IMG/VR virus record: IMGVR_UViG_3300043399_001520
Span: 1 to 24,734 of that record
DNA: 24,734 bases
Direction: 5' to 3' (one strand)
Source of the DNA: a virus
Below are positions 9,330 to 23,353 of the stretch, piece by piece; positions within the stretch are counted from its first letter, which is position 1, and the number at the start of each line of letters is the position of its first letter. Below the pieces are notes generated by a model. The model had not been told where the DNA came from and searched no databases. It was given only the letters and a program-made list of their open reading frames with translations. Made by a program: the position numbers and the translations under genes.

Positions 9330-10708
9330 TACTCATCCTCTCCTTCGTTATCAATCAACCACGTCTGTGCCGCCTCGGGCAACACCTGCTGCCCTTTGGC
9401 ATCCTCTCGAACCAGCGCCAACCCTCGTATAGGTTGGTGCACGATGGCGTCTTGGACCAAGCTCCAATCTTGACGCCGCGACTTGATTATTTTTTCCGCC
9501 TGAGCGGGAGAGACCGGCTCTCGCCGCTCATAATCACCATCCCCGTACAGCACAGTGAGCACCGCCACGACGTTTGCACCTGCGGCCCACGCACGGTGCC
9601 CGTACTTGGCGATCAGTTTGCGACCGGGGATGTTCACACCGGCCACCGCTCTCTCGTACAAAGCCCGCTCGACACGGGACAGAAAGTCTCGCATCGCATC
9701 TGCTCTTTCCGAAAGCCACAGCAGCTGCTCAACGGTGAGATCTCTTGTCAGTGCGTACGAAGGCTGACCTGAAGCGTCATCGATGACACCGACACTGATC
9801 TCCTGCAGCACAGCATCCTGTTGCATCGGGCAAGTCATTGCACGAGGACAGTACTGGCAGTGCGGACCGGCTATCAGTAGCGATTCATCACCGGTTTGCA
9901 GTGGCAGCCGTAACCGGTGCCACCGTTCCAGCACAACATTCGCGGTGTGACCGATCTTCTCATATGCAAGGTGTATGTCTGTCTGACCGGGTACAAACTT
10001 CGACACCGAAGGGTTGCACCGAGGCTGCACCACGACCTGCACCACACGTCGAACACGAGTGTCCGGCGCCTGTTGGGCCATCCACTCCATCACGAGAAGG
10101 GCATACGCTGTTGTCTGCAGCCCCGAAGCGTGGACGGGTTTTCGCCCAAACTTCAAATCGAGTATGCACAACACTCCCGTTTCCGGGCAATACAGCACGC
10201 AGTCTGCGGTGCCCCCGAACAAGGGGGTGCCTTGCTCGATCTCCGTATCGCCTGAAGGTGCACTCCAGAGGCCGCTTGTTCGTTCAGCCTCGGTGCTGAC
10301 TCGCGGATCTGTCATGCTGTGTTCAGCAATCAGCTCACAAACGGTACTAAGAAACAGCTGGACAGCGTCGACCATCTCAACGGTCACCGGGACAGGGGCT
10401 GTTGCTTCGGGATCAAACTCCGTCCACAACCTATCGACGAAGGTGGACGCCCATGAAATTGCAGTCTCAACGGCAATTCCCAGCGTCGTCTTACCGCCCC
10501 ACGCATACCAAACGGGTATTGATTCTTTCTCCAAAGTAGGGTGAGACACACACACTCGTTTCAGTGTGAGGCAAAGAAGTGCGTGGCAACAAGACCCCTC
10601 TTCGCTGGCTGCGGAAGGTCGGGAAACAACAACCTGCCCGAACAAACTACCCGGGCAGGTTGTCCACCGATCAGCAGATGAGGGGCCAAGCAGGTAGTGC
10701 TTAGCCAA
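9329..10708 (-). CDS. DUF2800 family PD-(D/E)XK nuclease (RecB/Cas4-like)
   Basis: A 459-residue protein. Family signs: N-terminal HYLLGPSSADRWTTCPGS; SEEGSCCHALL (E37, H42); nuclease core GTADCVLY (D169) and ILDLKFGRKPV (D184, K186) with QTTAYAL (Q198); and a C-terminal CQYCPRAMTC cluster. The early Cys of TTCP plus these three Cys match the four-Cys iron-sulfur site of RecB/Cas4-like nucleases. It probably resects DNA ends in phage recombination with the DUF2815 protein. The TTG at 10708 is preferred because the G-rich stretch 10713-10718 acts as SD 5-6 nt upstream and the protein then begins like its family. An ATG at 10726 would add six residues. It overlaps the upstream gene by 8 nt. Confidence 0.88.
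   Translation of the reverse strand: MAKHYLLGPSSADRWTTCPGSLFGQVVVSRPSAASEEGSCCHALLCLTLKRVCVSHPTLEKESIPVWYAWGGKTTLGIAVETAISWASTFVDRLWTEFDPEATAPVPVTVEMVDAVQLFLSTVCELIAEHSMTDPRVSTEAERTSGLWSAPSGDTEIEQGTPLFGGTADCVLYCPETGVLCILDLKFGRKPVHASGLQTTAYALLVMEWMAQQAPDTRVRRVVQVVVQPRCNPSVSKFVPGQTDIHLAYEKIGHTANVVLERWHRLRLPLQTGDESLLIAGPHCQYCPRAMTCPMQQDAVLQEISVGVIDDASGQPSYALTRDLTVEQLLWLSERADAMRDFLSRVERALYERAVAGVNIPGRKLIAKYGHRAWAAGANVVAVLTVLYGDGDYERREPVSPAQAEKIIKSRRQDWSLVQDAIVHQPIRGLALVREDAKGQQVLPEAAQTWLIDNEGEDE
9501..9530. repeat. 12-bp hairpin with one bulge in DUF2800 gene
   Basis: TGAGCGGGAGAG (9501-9512) pairs with CTCTC-G-CCGCTCA (9518-9530) with one bulged G and a 5-nt loop. It lies in coding sequence for SPAQAE. 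Confidence 0.5.
10629..10663. repeat. 12-bp perfect inverted repeat early in DUF2800 gene
   Basis: ACAACCTGCCCG (10629-10640) and CGGGCAGGTTGT (10652-10663) flank an 11-nt loop. In the minus-strand mRNA it begins 45 nt after the TTG start, and the loop flanks could add G-U pairs. It is too close to the start to be a normal operon terminator. Confidence 0.7.
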
Positions 10709-11465
10709 GGCGCACCCCCCGTGCATGCAGCGAAGCCTGCAGTGCGTTGTAGAGGACGGGTGCGTTGGCGTCAGTGAGCTGCGACAAGTTGCTCATGCCT
10801 GCCATGGCAATTGCATCCTGCACAGACTCTCGAGCGCCTGTCGCCGGACTGTTCACCAGTTGGATCACAAACCCGCGCACGTTCGCGGCGTTAAACTGCG
10901 GAGCTGGCTGTTGGACAGGCACCGCCTGTGGCACGGGTTGTGGAACCGGAAAGGCCGCGGGTTGTGGCGCAAACGCAGCCGTAGGTGCACCCGCAGTGAA
11001 CGGGTTAAATTGCTGATTTTTGGTCAGATCCACGGCCACCGAGGTGGAGCTGACCGGATCGGGTGCTGGGGGAAACGTCCGCACGCCGGGCTGCCCGCCG
11101 GCTGGTGGCGTGTAGAGCGGCTGCTGCACAGGCAACACGGGGCCGGGGATGGCGTTTGGAAAACCCGGAGCCTGGAAAGCAGCCTGGGGTGGCTCCGCGG
11201 TGATTGGCGGAGCAGGGGCAGCCTCTCCTTTTTTTCGCCGCCCTCGTTTTGCAGGCGAGGGGTCGGCACCTGCTGGAGGCGTGGCAGGGGCCTCTGAATT
11301 CGTCACATCCCACTGCGACGTGGGTGGCAGCTGGCTGTGTTCGGCTTCCGGCAGGCCCAAGGCCGCCACACCGAAATTCACCCTCAGACCAGCCTTAAAC
11401 AGAGCATGAAACGCCGGATCAACATTCGCCAGATCATGATCATCAAACTGAATTGTAATCAACAT
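10701..11465 (-). CDS. Unknown protein with basic segment and Pro/Gln-rich linker
   Basis: A 254-residue protein from the ATG at 11465, with AAAGGAG 6 nt upstream; in-frame codons further upstream lack an SD. Three parts are visible: a short N-terminal domain (MLITIQFDDHDLANVDPAFHAL); a basic patch KRGRRKKG (73-80) like an AT-hook or DNA-backbone contact; a long Pro/Ala/Gln-rich linker (about 82-200); and a C-terminal helical segment (NVRGFVIQLVNSPATGARES to the end). It heads the DUF2800-DUF2815-polymerase cassette, so a role in DNA transactions is plausible but unproven. Its start codon and SD lie in a strong hairpin (11462-11504). The low-complexity linker resembles in composition the tail of the DUF2815 protein. 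Confidence 0.75.
   Translation of the reverse strand: MLITIQFDDHDLANVDPAFHALFKAGLRVNFGVAALGLPEAEHSQLPPTSQWDVTNSEAPATPPAGADPSPAKRGRRKKGEAAPAPPITAEPPQAAFQAPGFPNAIPGPVLPVQQPLYTPPAGGQPGVRTFPPAPDPVSSTSVAVDLTKNQQFNPFTAGAPTAAFAPQPAAFPVPQPVPQAVPVQQPAPQFNAANVRGFVIQLVNSPATGARESVQDAIAMAGMSNLSQLTDANAPVLYNALQASLHARGVRLG
11022..11055. repeat. 11-bp hairpin with one mismatch in the 254-aa gene
   Basis: GGTCAG-A-TCCAC (11022-11033) pairs with GTGGA-G-CTGACC (11044-11055): six and five pairs around a single mismatch, with a 10-nt loop. Confidence 0.45.
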
Positions 11466-12435: not shown

Positions 12436-13476
12436 CTACTGAACGATGGGTGGTGGTGGTGACGGCCGTCGAATGGCCTCTTGACCGTCAATTATGGCCG
12501 CAGCTACGCCCTCGATTTGGCGAACAACTGCGAGTGTTTGGTCATCGCGGTTGGCGTTAGCCACACGCTGCAACGCCTCGACGAACGCTTCGCCTTTGTA
12601 GTCAACAATCGTCTCAACATACCGAATTTGCGGCGTTGCAGGAGGAGTACCAGCGGTCCGCTGAACGATTGGGTTATTTGGTGTGGAGCCAACGGCGTCA
12701 CGTTTTGCCTGCCGATAACGCCGTAATGCTTGGAACGCAACGCCGGCAACGCCAACCAAGCTGGTTGGAATGGCGACGTGCGGTGCGAGTACTGTGAGAG
12801 CAGCCGCGCCAAGAGCTTTGGCGACACCGCCCCACTGTGCGGAGAGCCCGCCAGCGTTTGCGCTGACGGGCTCTGGGGTGTCTGACGGCTGGGCCGCCTC
12901 AGCTGAAGCCTGCTGCTGCAACTTCAGGTTTTGCAGGTCGCGAGCAAGCTGCTCCAGCTGTTGCTGAACTGCCGCACTTACACTCGGCTGCGGTGCAGCA
13001 GCTGCATTTGGTTGTGGTGCAGCAGGAGGGCTTGGTGCTGCGTTCTGCTGCGGTCGTACAGGTCGAGGTACGGCACCGACGGATTCTTCGCTGTCGTCGT
13101 CGATCGCAAACGCTGCGGCCAAGGACCGCCACTCCCCGCGAGAGTACCCCACACGCCGAGCCTGTACCACGCCTCTGCGCACATAGCAGAATGTTGGTAG
13201 GCGTGTGACTCGCATCGCCGCTGCAAACCGAGACACTTTCGGGTCTGACTGCCCTTGCGAGTCGGCCACGCACATCGGTATGAAATTTATGCCGTTCTCC
13301 TTCGACAACAGCTGTCGCAGCTGCGGGTTCTGTTTGTAATCGTCGGAGAAGATTCGGCACGGCGGGCACTGGTGCGAATGGAAGTAGTACACCGTCGCCT
13401 GCTGGGGCAGCTCGTACTCCTCCAGAGAAGGGGCTGCTTGTGTCGTCAGGCACAGCAAAATCATCATCAACTGCAT
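12436..13476 (-). CDS. Exported thioredoxin-like protein (CPPC) with coiled coil and membrane segment
   Basis: A 346-residue protein from the ATG at 13476, with GGAGGTGA ending 4 nt upstream, a very strong SD. The N-terminus MQLMMILLCLTTQAAPS looks like a short signal peptide or membrane anchor. Residues about 25-120 resemble a thioredoxin fold: VYYFHSHQCPPCRIF with the CPPC redox pair (C37, C40) and a later RLPTF that supplies the cis-Pro. Then come an Ala/Pro linker, a Gln-rich coiled coil (VQQQLEQLARDLQNLKLQQQ, about 165-190) and a hydrophobic stretch (ALGAAALTVLAPHVAIPTSL, about 220-250). This suggests an envelope protein that makes or breaks disulfides, or a virion/lysis component. A second ORF in another frame overlaps its first half. 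Confidence 0.78.
   Translation of the reverse strand: MQLMMILLCLTTQAAPSLEEYELPQQATVYYFHSHQCPPCRIFSDDYKQNPQLRQLLSKENGINFIPMCVADSQGQSDPKVSRFAAAMRVTRLPTFCYVRRGVVQARRVGYSRGEWRSLAAAFAIDDDSEESVGAVPRPVRPQQNAAPSPPAAPQPNAAAAPQPSVSAAVQQQLEQLARDLQNLKLQQQASAEAAQPSDTPEPVSANAGGLSAQWGGVAKALGAAALTVLAPHVAIPTSLVGVAGVAFQALRRYRQAKRDAVGSTPNNPIVQRTAGTPPATPQIRYVETIVDYKGEAFVEALQRVANANRDDQTLAVVRQIEGVAAAIIDGQEAIRRPSPPPPIVQ
12843..12874 (-). repeat. 14-bp hairpin, complete only in the coding-sense RNA
   Basis: On the minus strand AGAGCCCGTCAGCG pairs with CGCTGGCGGGCTCT around CAAA: thirteen Watson-Crick pairs and one U-G. On the + strand that position is a C-A mismatch, so the full stem exists only in the mRNA of the thioredoxin-like gene. 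Confidence 0.6.
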
Positions 13477-13555
13477 AGGTCACCTCCGCAACCACCGGGG
13501 GACCAACCGCGACAATTGTCGCAGCAAGGACCCAGACAAAGAGAAAGAATCGCAT
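12899..13555 (-). CDS. Overlapping ORF with strong SD and signal peptide (uncertain)
   Basis: From the ATG at 13555 an open frame runs 218 codons, out of frame with both DUF1353 (which it starts inside) and the thioredoxin-like gene (which it overlaps for about 190 codons). The case for translation is a GGAGG 8 nt upstream (13564-13568) and a textbook signal peptide (MRFFLFVWVLAATIVAVG then PPVVA and an acidic segment). Against it, the second half is an Arg/Cys/Ser-rich composition typical of a shadow frame. It could be an Rz1-like nested gene, or supply a signal peptide to the thioredoxin domain if a +1 frameshift or a sequencing error joins the frames. Confidence 0.35.
   Translation of the reverse strand: MRFFLFVWVLAATIVAVGPPVVAEVTYAVDDDFAVPDDTSSPFSGGVRAAPAGDGVLLPFAPVPAVPNLLRRLQTEPAAATAVVEGERHKFHTDVRGRLARAVRPESVSVCSGDASHTPTNILLCAQRRGTGSACGVLSRGVAVLGRSVCDRRRQRRIRRCRTSTCTTAAERSTKPSCCTTTKCSCCTAAECKCGSSATAGAACSRPAKPEVAAAGFS
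13150..13207. repeat. Nested 18-bp three-part hairpin
   Basis: CACACGCC (13150-13157) pairs with GGCGTGTG (13200-13207); inside it TACCA pairs with TGGTA and TCTGC with GCAGA, each perfectly, around a 7-nt loop. It lies in the thioredoxin domain coding region. Confidence 0.4.
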
Positions 13556-13989
13556 TTCTTCGGCCTCCACACAAAACGACTGTGAAACCTGACGCCCAGC
13601 CACATGGCGCGACGTCGCCAACCGCTCACCTGCGAGCGGTACAAAAGGAACAGAAACAGAGAGTCATTGATTTCTCTGTCTTGATAGGTCGCACTGGCAT
13701 CACATAGTAAGTCGTGAACAAGTGATGCCCACTGAAACATCGGGTCTTTCGGTTTACCGATAATGAACTGGACAAACCACGGAATAGTGGCCCCGTCAAA
13801 CTCATACCCCTCCGGCACGCTCATGCGAATCTGATGAAGCCCGTTGGCGTCAACAGGGACAACGGCGACCCACCTGTCAATAAACTTGAACCCGCGGAGG
13901 GTGTCGACCACTGGCAGTTGTTCGGGAAACACTACTCGCGGGAGTGATACGTCAAACCGGAGAGAGTATCGTGTATGGGCTCCCAACAT
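13480..13989 (-). CDS. DUF1353 phage protein
   Basis: A 169-residue protein. The family pattern is visible as VPEGYEFDGATIPWFVQFIIGKPKDP followed by FQWASLVHDLLCD, with the conserved DGATIP and the VHD Asp. DUF1353 proteins are small phage proteins of unknown function often encoded near structural or lysis genes. The ATG at 13989 is chosen (GGGAGG ends 5-6 nt upstream); the adjacent ATG at 13992 is too close to the SD. The ATG overlaps the TGA of the preceding membrane protein gene as TGATG. The basic C-terminal tail (LLRQLSRLVPRWLRR) exceeds the usual domain and overlaps the possible signal-peptide ORF. Confidence 0.82.
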   Translation of the reverse strand: MLGAHTRYSLRFDVSLPRVVFPEQLPVVDTLRGFKFIDRWVAVVPVDANGLHQIRMSVPEGYEFDGATIPWFVQFIIGKPKDPMFQWASLVHDLLCDASATYQDREINDSLFLFLLYRSQVSGWRRRAMWLGVRFHSRFVWRPKKCDSFSLSGSLLRQLSRLVPRWLRR

Positions 13990-20361: not shown

Positions 20362-23304
20362 TCAGTTGAATGTTGGATACATGGGTGCGTCTTGGTATTG
20401 ATACCTGTTTCTTTCGATCTCTTGTTTGCTTTTGTCTCTCAGGCTGTTGATGCGTCTCGCAAAGACTGATTTCTGCTGCGAAGTGAGGTTGTCGGTCTGC
20501 CGCAAGTCTTGTAGCACTCTAAAAAACTCAGGGCCCCCTTGGTACTTCGCCGCTTCCGATTTGTATCTTTGGTCAAGCCAATATCCGCTGTCAGTTGCCG
20601 CTCTCATGTAAGTCCACAAATCCAACACATCGCTTTCGGCGACATCGGTTCCACTCTCCACCATGTACGAGTGTGCCGATGACAAAACGGACGTCGGATC
20701 TTCTGCGTCTACGTCTCGGTTCTGTGAAACGGCATGTAGGAATGGCGACAATGGCGTCCCGTCGTCGCGAACACCAGTCACCAAGTTGCTGCGGATAGCC
20801 GCTCGATCCTGCTGGTTTTGTGCGGTGTTTGGTGCCGCCATCGAAAGTGCGCTCGGCGAACTACCAGCACTGCTGCTGATCGGGTTTGCTGCCAGAGCAG
20901 TGGCAGGCAGCACACCGGCATTCACAGCCCGGACCAATGCTGCGCGGTTACGGCGCTCGAGGGTTTTGTTTTTCTTGGCGGCAGCACGCTCAGCTGCTGC
21001 TGCTTTTCGCGCAGGCAAGGAATCTCGTTTGGCCTGTGCCGACGCCTCAGCGGCACCCTCAAGACGGCGAAGCTCGTCCTGGAGGCCTGTGTTATACTCC
21101 AGACGTCCTGTCTGGTTGAGGGCGCGGAGCGCCCCTAGTCTGTTCGTGCCGTACATACCGGTACTATTGCCCGGGCCCACGAAACGCTCAGACTGCATGC
21201 CGTATGTCTTCCTGCGGCTCTGCATTGGGTCATCGGCATATCTCAGAGTACCCTTGTACTCCTCTGTCTCAGTCTCAGAGCCATCCAGCATGGCACGTGT
21301 CCGGTTCAGGTAAAACTCGTCATGACCGCCGGGGGCTTGCAGCCTCTCGTCGTTTGCGTCGAGTTGGGCAAGAGCTTGGCCTTGCTGGTATCTTTCATAC
21401 CAGCCGCTGGGTGTTGCGTCGATACTGCCGGGCAGCAACCCCGATGGGGTGTTCTGACCGCCCGTGACGTAGGGACTGTCCGGGGACAGGGCACCACCGG
21501 AAAGGTGTGCTCTGTTACGAATAGGGTTCATATCTGCGTTGGGGTTGCGACTGCGGTACTGTGCGATCTCTTCCTGGGAAGGAACAGGCCTTCTGTTCAG
21601 GATTGCGTCCCCGTGCGTACCTCGGCGCTGCGCATCTGCCATGAGCAGCTGCTTGTGTTCCGGTTTCAAACCGGCAAAATCTGGGTGTTCTTGCGCAAAA
21701 TAGCTTCGCTCGAATTCAGGCAAGCCCATCATGCTTTTGCGTATATCGGCGGCTTTTTCGTGCGAAAAGGCTCTTTCTGGGAACCCCAATCTAAACTCGT
21801 CCAGCTTCTGAGTGATTTCTGCCAGGCTCTGATCCCAATCTACTATTTGCTCCGAAGTCAGACCTTGACGCATGGCGTCATCCGTCATGCGATCCACAGG
21901 GTTTTGCCTGCGGTTTGTGGGTGCGGGCTGTGGACCTTCACCCTCAACACCAAGGAAGGCGTTTCTCCGGGCACGGTCAAAGTCTGTCACCAGAGGGATC
22001 TGCTGACTGCTGCTAAACGGGGACCCTTGCATTGCTAGCATTGCTGCTGGTCCGATCCCAGACCCCACTGCCATCAGAGAAGGCATGATGCTTCGCATAC
22101 CCGGCTCTAAGCTGTACTCGCTTTGTTGTAAAAACGAAGGAAGCTGGCCCCCTTCGTCCGACCCCCACGCCGGACGTTGCATCCGACTAAGTGCGTCGTG
22201 TCGCTGCTGCTCTTGCAAAAGGATGTCAGAAAAAGGTGGCGGTCCTGTCAAAGTAAAGGGACCTGGCATGCGCGACTGCAACCGTGATGCCGCCTGCGAG
22301 TCGGCTGCCTGTTGCTCCCGGAGTTGAAACCCACTCACCCGAGGAGGCATTCGCGGGATATCAACCGCAGCCTCGTTGACGCTGACGACAGGTCTTCGTA
22401 GAGTCAGTACGTCGAATCCGGGGGTATTTATATCCGCGAGGGTTGAAAGAGGGTGTTTTGTCATCATCTCATCGTGATACGGATCTAAAAACCTACCGGG
22501 CCGACCGGGTTGTGTGTATATCCTTTTTGGAGGGGCAGTCTCACGCGAGACAGCCGGGGCTCTGTCGGCGCGCAGCCCCAGAAGATCTTCGGCGTCTACT
22601 CGTGGCTTGCTCCCACCAACCTCTTCTCCGACAGCTGGTGGCTGCGGAAAAACAAACCCCGGCGGCTGCATCATACCTGTCATGATGTATGGCGACCGCA
22701 TCCGACGGCGTGCTGTGATCGGGTTCATGTCATCAACCTCTGGTCCTACGGGCGTGAACGGATGAAACATTTGCGACTGCGGGTGTGCGCTTCGTGTCGT
22801 CAGGCCGACAGGCCACTGAGCGTCCACCAAACCTTGTGCGACAGTACCGACAACGCTCCAAGGCGAATTGCGGCGGGGGTCTTGCGCAGAGGCAAACGGT
22901 CGTGTAAGGGGATTGACTACCGGCTGTGCTGGGTTGTACGGGTTGGGTGCCGGACGTTTAGATGCGGACAGCGCAGCAAGCCTGGCCGATCTCTTCGCCC
23001 AAACCCCGGGCCGCCACGAGGTGTCGAAATACTCCTCGGCGGCCTTGTCAAAACCGTAGTCTTGAAGGCTCCGCCCATATCTCTCACTGGTCTTGCCAAC
23101 ATGCCCCTCACCCTCCTCAACCATCCGAATGGCTACTGAGGGTGAGTACCTGTGCGGCCACGATCCGTCGGGGCTGGCCAGTGCCCGCACGACAGGATGG
23201 ACCGCCACCTTGTCTGTGTCGACGTAGCGGGCCGGTGGCCGTGGTTTCATTTTCGAGTAGTCGTAAACCGGACCCTTCGTGGGGTCGAAAAAAGCATCAG
23301 CCAT
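20362..23304 (-). CDS. Large (980 aa) disordered probable virion-associated protein
   Basis: A 980-residue protein from the ATG at 23304, with GGGAGG 6 nt upstream; the longer in-frame version lacks an SD. It is rich in Pro, Arg, Gln, Ser and Met with few long hydrophobic cores (many PPxx and SRMQ-type segments), so it is probably largely disordered. Ala/Lys/Arg-rich helices occur near residues 765-810 (AAEASAQAKRDSLPARKAAA and AAAKKNKTLERRNR), and a charged helical C-terminus precedes NRYQYQDAPMYP. No enzyme motif was recognised. Its neighbour is the 1839-aa protein, with start and stop almost touching, so the pair probably act together, for example as internal virion or ejection proteins. 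The SD can form a short CCTC/GAGG hairpin (23311-23322). Confidence 0.75.
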   Translation of the reverse strand: MADAFFDPTKGPVYDYSKMKPRPPARYVDTDKVAVHPVVRALASPDGSWPHRYSPSVAIRMVEEGEGHVGKTSERYGRSLQDYGFDKAAEEYFDTSWRPGVWAKRSARLAALSASKRPAPNPYNPAQPVVNPLTRPFASAQDPRRNSPWSVVGTVAQGLVDAQWPVGLTTRSAHPQSQMFHPFTPVGPEVDDMNPITARRRMRSPYIMTGMMQPPGFVFPQPPAVGEEVGGSKPRVDAEDLLGLRADRAPAVSRETAPPKRIYTQPGRPGRFLDPYHDEMMTKHPLSTLADINTPGFDVLTLRRPVVSVNEAAVDIPRMPPRVSGFQLREQQAADSQAASRLQSRMPGPFTLTGPPPFSDILLQEQQRHDALSRMQRPAWGSDEGGQLPSFLQQSEYSLEPGMRSIMPSLMAVGSGIGPAAMLAMQGSPFSSSQQIPLVTDFDRARRNAFLGVEGEGPQPAPTNRRQNPVDRMTDDAMRQGLTSEQIVDWDQSLAEITQKLDEFRLGFPERAFSHEKAADIRKSMMGLPEFERSYFAQEHPDFAGLKPEHKQLLMADAQRRGTHGDAILNRRPVPSQEEIAQYRSRNPNADMNPIRNRAHLSGGALSPDSPYVTGGQNTPSGLLPGSIDATPSGWYERYQQGQALAQLDANDERLQAPGGHDEFYLNRTRAMLDGSETETEEYKGTLRYADDPMQSRRKTYGMQSERFVGPGNSTGMYGTNRLGALRALNQTGRLEYNTGLQDELRRLEGAAEASAQAKRDSLPARKAAAAERAAAKKNKTLERRNRAALVRAVNAGVLPATALAANPISSSAGSSPSALSMAAPNTAQNQQDRAAIRSNLVTGVRDDGTPLSPFLHAVSQNRDVDAEDPTSVLSSAHSYMVESGTDVAESDVLDLWTYMRAATDSGYWLDQRYKSEAAKYQGGPEFFRVLQDLRQTDNLTSQQKSVFARRINSLRDKSKQEIERNRYQYQDAPMYPTFN
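23107..23146. repeat. 9-bp inverted repeat with inner hairpin
   Basis: CTCACCCTC (23107-23115) and GAGGGTGAG (23138-23146) enclose a 22-nt segment with its own 4-bp tetraloop stem (CCAT/ATGG). It lies near the 5' end of the 980-aa gene. Confidence 0.45.
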
Positions 23305-23353
23305 GGGTCGCCTCCCGAGAGGATCGTACCAGCCCCGGACCGTGCCGTCTATC

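Follow-up and report, generated by a model that had tools for sequence, protein, structure and literature searches.

Organization of the locus

The window analyzed here is a complete virus record (IMG/VR IMGVR_UViG_3300043399_001520), a single contig of 24,734 bases from an unclassified phage. On the minus strand, genes for a 90-aa membrane protein, a DUF1353 protein, a thioredoxin-like protein, and a 288-aa protein follow one another in that order (Table 1). The DUF1353 gene and the thioredoxin-like ORF share a reading frame and are separated by TGA-CCT-ATG. A second frame, different from the one common to these two genes, is open on the same strand from a TTG start at 13621 to 12899 and contains an internal ATG at 13555; it overlaps the thioredoxin-like ORF out of frame from 13476 to 12899, ca. 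190 codons. From its sequence, the 90-aa protein is a possible candidate for a holin or an inner-membrane spanin; it has no family in Pfam or NCBIfam, and its PHROG match (E 0.18) is not significant. The 288-aa protein has no PHROG match.

Table 1. Features of the two-frame junction and its neighbors (window coordinates).
Feature	Position	Strand	Description
Small membrane protein, 90 aa	13989..14261	-	A single hydrophobic segment followed by a charged helix, as read from the sequence
DUF1353 gene, 170 aa	13480..13992	-	PF07087, E 3.9e-15
Shine-Dalgarno GGAGG	13564..13568	-	8 nt before ATG 13555
Second-frame segment, MRFFLFVWVLAATIVAVGPPVVA / EVTYAVDDDFAVPDDTSSP	13430..13555	-	Strong signal peptide and short acidic stretch (slash, predicted cleavage site), coding-like
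Shine-Dalgarno GGAGGT	13482..13487	-	5 nt before ATG 13476; shares bases with the DUF1353 stop codon
Thioredoxin-like gene, 346 aa	12436..13476	-	Pfam Thioredoxin_2, E 9.7e-6, 26.3 bits; coding score +44.6 bits (13428-12900)
CCC-T	13429..13432	-	One candidate place for a +1 join between the frames; unconvincing as a programmed site
Second-frame remainder	12899..13429	-	Open to 12899; -51.9 bits, no coding signal; Cys/Arg-rich

Elsewhere in the record, the minus strand between 14834 and 23487 encodes two large proteins, of 1839 and 1041 aa, neither of which has a match among INPHARED phages; the 1041-aa protein has no PHROG or Pfam match, and the 1839-aa protein has a Pfam match at E 0.1 only. 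They are likely to be virion proteins from a phage group of which little is known. At 251-997 on the plus strand, a match to phrog_2554 (unknown function; E 2.7e-59) covers profile positions 286-518 of 529. What remains of the profile would map upstream of position 1 of the record, which may therefore be a fragment.

The DUF1353 neighbor

The DUF1353 domain (PF07087) scores 55.7 bits, above the gathering cut-off of 22.5, and ends at about ATG 13555, which overlaps residues 145/146. Among 60 viral relatives, 41 end at most 13 residues from the equivalent of window residue 141, four end 19-24 residues past it, and 15 end at least 29 residues past it, like the window protein; the DUF1353 proteins of four phage relatives also end near this position. 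These ends agree moderately with a coding start at ATG 13555.

A 2024 paper, according to the excerpted text, reports that one DUF1353 protein has phospholipase A2 activity, suggests the same for others, and describes an adjacent His-Asp pair as important for catalysis (PMC11525133). This pair is kept in the window protein (H93, D94) and in the four aligned phage relatives, and the DUF1353 protein of the window is possibly phospholipase A2-like. In Shigella phage Sf11, DUF1353 lies after holin and DUF2514 endopeptidase genes, and in Pseudomonas phage Cygsa01 it adjoins a putative endolysin; in two Vibrio phages (listed host Shewanella), there are no annotated lysis neighbors at DUF1353. The lysis-gene neighbors in two of these four phages hint at a membrane-acting late function.

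The thioredoxin-like protein

The thioredoxin-like protein consists of a weak signal-like N-terminus, a CPPC thioredoxin domain (residues 26-113), an Ala/Pro/Gln linker, and a helical C-terminal part. Its score against Thioredoxin_2 (PF13098), 26.3 bits, is below the gathering cut-off of 27, making it thioredoxin-like rather than a member of the family. The CxxC redox motif (VYYFHSHQCPPCR) is present in the ORF and also falls within a weak alignment to the solved thioredoxin 2lst (E 0.86). When the second frame is joined to the domain, the score is 26.1 bits, and no domain spans the junction. The idea of VTYAVDDDF as the first thioredoxin strand found no support, the Pfam match starting at the same place in the joined reading. 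Structure prediction without relatives gave mean pLDDT values of 44.0 for the plain and 43.9 for the joined protein, uninformative for either reading.

Relatives were sought in several collections. Scanning viral_contigs for peptide patterns of the thioredoxin-like, 1839-aa, exonuclease, DUF1353, and polymerase proteins gave no relative, and no thioredoxin-like match was present in any of the 80 loci collected by polymerase alignment or the 60 collected by DUF1353 alignment. Searches of genome_contigs with the thioredoxin-like and 1839-aa proteins, and of phages and plasmids with the thioredoxin-like (or joined), 1839-aa, and 1041-aa proteins, returned no relative; in phages and plasmids, the thioredoxin domain alone gave one match, at E 2. 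A scan for the CPPC motif identified four loci, none with a DUF1353 or thioredoxin-like match by tblastn. The second-frame peptide has no homolog in Pfam, PHROGs, or NCBIfam.

Two export-type starts in different frames

The preliminary description of this DNA placed GGAGG 8 nt before an ATG at 13555, in a frame other than that of the thioredoxin-like ORF, and judged the signal peptide there to be the stronger of the two. The sequence confirms the site and the frame, and the ranking of the signal peptides holds with a crude in-house scorer (uncharged core, Kyte-Doolittle sum; 41.1 vs 26.0). The product of 13555 would begin MRFFLFVWVLAATIVAVGPPVVA, with predicted cleavage before E, one Arg, a 15-residue uncharged core, and a V-x-A site, and the product of 13476 would begin MQLMMILLCLTTQA, with predicted cleavage before A, no positive charge, and an 8-residue core. 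The Shine-Dalgarno sequence (SD) of ATG 13476 is as good as that of ATG 13555. Among 957 starts followed by at least 60 open codons on both strands, 30 have an SD core of at least 5 nt, and the only ones that combine such a core with a signal-like core are 13476 and 13555, which are 79 nt apart. Outer-membrane spanins carry a lipobox cysteine at the N-terminus. There is no lipobox at either start: no Cys lies near the 13555 signal peptide, and ILLC at 13476 has Leu before Cys.

Each start was compared with chance by synonymous recoding. With the frame-0 residues fixed, a core of at least 41 arose at 13555 in one of 20,000 recodings, and one of at least 30 in 138. Conversely, when the second-frame residues were held constant, a core comparable to the one at 13476 appeared in 104 of 20,000, and in four the core came with both a start and an SD. 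In the other genes (one listed gene, 20362-23350, read out of frame), no core of at least 30 was found at any of 185 off-frame starts followed by 41 open codons. All of these figures are after the fact, and they are weakened somewhat by the choice of the place by a reader who had scanned the whole window. Because both cores are rare in synonymous recodings, neither start is likely to be a by-product of the opposite frame.

Coding signal by frame

Codon log-odds were trained on ten other genes of the record, with leave-one-out scoring for off-frame windows; TTG and GTG starts were trimmed in the training genes, and some listed starts may be too early. Between 13555 and 13478, the second frame scores +10.9 bits, compared with -6.7 for the DUF1353 tail (its last 25 codons), a gap of 17.6 bits that is larger than the maximum of 12.2 among 4,973 open off-frame 26-codon windows in the ten other genes. 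Over the 42 codons from 13555 to 13430, the second frame reaches 17.8 bits; in the other genes, 42-codon windows reached 17.0 bits in 534 of 5,373 cases in frame and in none of 10,746 off frame. From 13476 to 13429 the frames tie, at +6.5 and +6.8 bits, with three ATG codons supplying 4.5 of the bits of the thioredoxin frame, and both frames were so high together in 3 of 11,266 windows. From 13428 on, the thioredoxin frame scores +44.6 bits and the second frame -51.9.

A Viterbi path through the frames follows DUF1353 to 13572, the second frame from 13571 to 13443, and the thioredoxin frame from 13442. At a switch cost of 8, every other change between coding frames on the minus strand (24.4 to 4.3 kb) coincides with or adjoins a gene boundary; at a cost of 6, short, chance-like switches also appear within the 1839-aa gene and the helicase gene. 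In the exonuclease ORF (minus strand), the first ca. 60 codons, 10543-10726, are non-coding in the frame path, yet the family match starts at residue 9. Scored in this way, the second frame resembles genuine coding sequence only between 13555 and about 13440.

Interpretation of the junction

The reading that we favor, with a probability of about 0.38, is that 13555 was the original start of an exported thioredoxin-like gene and was displaced from frame by a single-base indel. The original gene would have followed DUF1353 and encoded, in order, a signal peptide with cleavage after VVA, a short acidic linker, and the CPPC domain. The one-base offset would lie somewhere between about 13480 and 13430 and could be a natural mutation or an assembly slip. 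The domain could still be produced from ATG 13476, which has its own SD and a weaker hydrophobic N-terminus, and export may persist in poorer form from this start. We infer a former single ORF comprising the N-terminal segment and the domain, and an indel as the cause of the offset; consistent with this, the second frame carries coding signal from 13555 to 13440, which then passes to the thioredoxin frame, and the second frame has none after 13428.

For orphan, unclustered frame transitions in prokaryotes, the GeneTack authors, in the excerpted part of their report, put the expected share of sequencing errors or indels at 67% and that of overlaps at 33%, and they do not expect indel cases to carry a ribosome-binding site at the downstream ORF (PMC3711429). 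The site before 13476 thus counts against the simplest form of the indel, and a purely accidental restart there is improbable, given the 104 recodings with a comparable core and the four with core, start, and SD. Several further observations tell against an indel: the frames tie over 13476-13429, an additional 176 codons of the second frame are open, a length that few recodings reach, and the Pfam score is no higher for the joined protein. The 15 DUF1353 relatives with equally long tails, and the lack of relatives in our searches, weigh on the same side.

Less probable, in our judgment, is an ordinary junction at which the DUF1353 stop at 13480 is followed by coupled translation of the thioredoxin-like gene from 13476, the signal peptide of the second frame being accidental and the frame unused. 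The strong SD at 5 nt suits such an arrangement, as does the 3-nt gap, which is similar to those at the closest flanking junctions (15, -4, and 12 nt); the missing homologs of the second-frame peptide and the loss of coding signal after 13428 also speak for it. It has to accommodate, however, a coding score and a signal core in 13555-13478 that exceed everything found off-frame in the other genes, the core being matched in a single one of 20,000 recodings, albeit at a place chosen by the reader. We think it rather unlikely that 13555-12899 encodes a separate exported 218-aa protein, nested out of frame as Rz1 is in Rz, with an SD and a signal peptide for each gene. No accident would then be required at either start, and the openness of 13428-12899 has P 0.00045 under recoding with genome usage and 0.007 under permutation within the region; none of 8,124 off-frame 175-codon windows in the other genes is open. 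Within the overlap, T-ending codons before would-be stops are under-used (1/25 vs 28/126; Fisher 0.024), and no such deficit is seen after it (7/21 vs 29/111). Across ten genes on the minus strand, 185 stops were seen in the +2 frame where 240.6 were expected, with the strongest depletion in the genes for the helicase, the 1839-aa protein, and the ssDNA-binding protein. Long off-frame ORFs are therefore commoner in this record than codon usage predicts, and a fair figure for the openness is, by our own estimate, roughly 0.01-0.05. The residues encoded after 13428 are also less protein-like than recoded by-products (-44.6 vs -25.4, sd 7.5; P 0.993) and match no family in Pfam, PHROGs, or NCBIfam. 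The preliminary suggestion of a gene nested in the style of Rz/Rz1 therefore finds weak support in a frame open beyond expectation, against which stand the unprotein-like residues after 13428 and the missing lipobox.

The same description proposed a +1 step joining the 13555 frame to the CPPC domain. The passage of the coding signal at about 13443 bears this out as far as the join is concerned; a programmed shift is another matter, for no stop or rare codon lies at a strong slip site and there is no unusual RNA structure, and we consider it improbable. Translation would start at 13555 and slip near 13459 (TTT) or 13432 (CCC-T), giving a 372-aa exported form beside the short form from 13476. 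The frames are indeed offset by +1 with no stop between them, and upstream the message contains an SD-like GGAGG. The PRFect rule, as given in the excerpted description, requires the codon after a run of three or four to be rarer than its +1 neighbor; TTT-GCT at 13459 passes as a 'three' motif with a commoner +1 codon, the only run of three to pass on abundance, and CCC-TTC at 13432 fails (PMC10885494). No stop or very rare codon occupies the A site, and the RNA around the junction folds in an ordinary way (z-scores -0.5 to +0.7). Since the second frame has no early stop, its long ORF would be the only alternative product; nor is there evidence of conservation.

We thus rank the indel above chance, chance above a nested gene, and a nested gene above a programmed frameshift; the order is not firm, and the probabilities are judgments. 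It is doubtful that the overlap is functional, whether as a nested, secreted, Cys-rich protein overprinted on the thioredoxin-like gene or as a +1 long form whose signal peptide is strong, made alongside a short form whose signal peptide is weak. If it were, the amount of exported redox protein would be set by the choice of start or frame. An overlap that is real and kept would offer a rare example of a phage gene at which signal peptides are stacked in two frames, and would give the phage a means of tuning redox-protein export near lysis-type genes. If the offset is an indel, the locus is a reminder that, for orphan viral genes, a single base can decide the start site and the predicted export.

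Comparison with known systems

Like exported Thioredoxin_2 proteins, the thioredoxin-like protein has CPPC after a hydrophobic beta strand (VYYFHSHQCPPC); unlike them, it scores just below the cut-off, carries a long linker and a helical C-terminal part, and has no close relative. The arrangement resembles Rz/Rz1 of lambda-like phages in its out-of-frame overlap, its two export-type N-termini, and the nearby DUF1353 gene (a lysis neighbor in Sf11), but lacks a lipobox, has a thioredoxin-like gene as host, and has a nested part without protein-like composition. It shares with the prfB frameshift a +1 step and an SD-like sequence upstream in the message; prfB, as far as the excerpted account goes, differs in its stop at the slip site, its close SD-to-slip spacing, and its conservation, none of which is found here (PMC10885494). 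As in the fs-genes of GeneTack, in the excerpted description, the coding signal changes frame without a stop, and the case is a singleton without relatives; unlike the indel cases described there, the downstream frame has a strong SD and a signal-like start of its own (PMC3711429).
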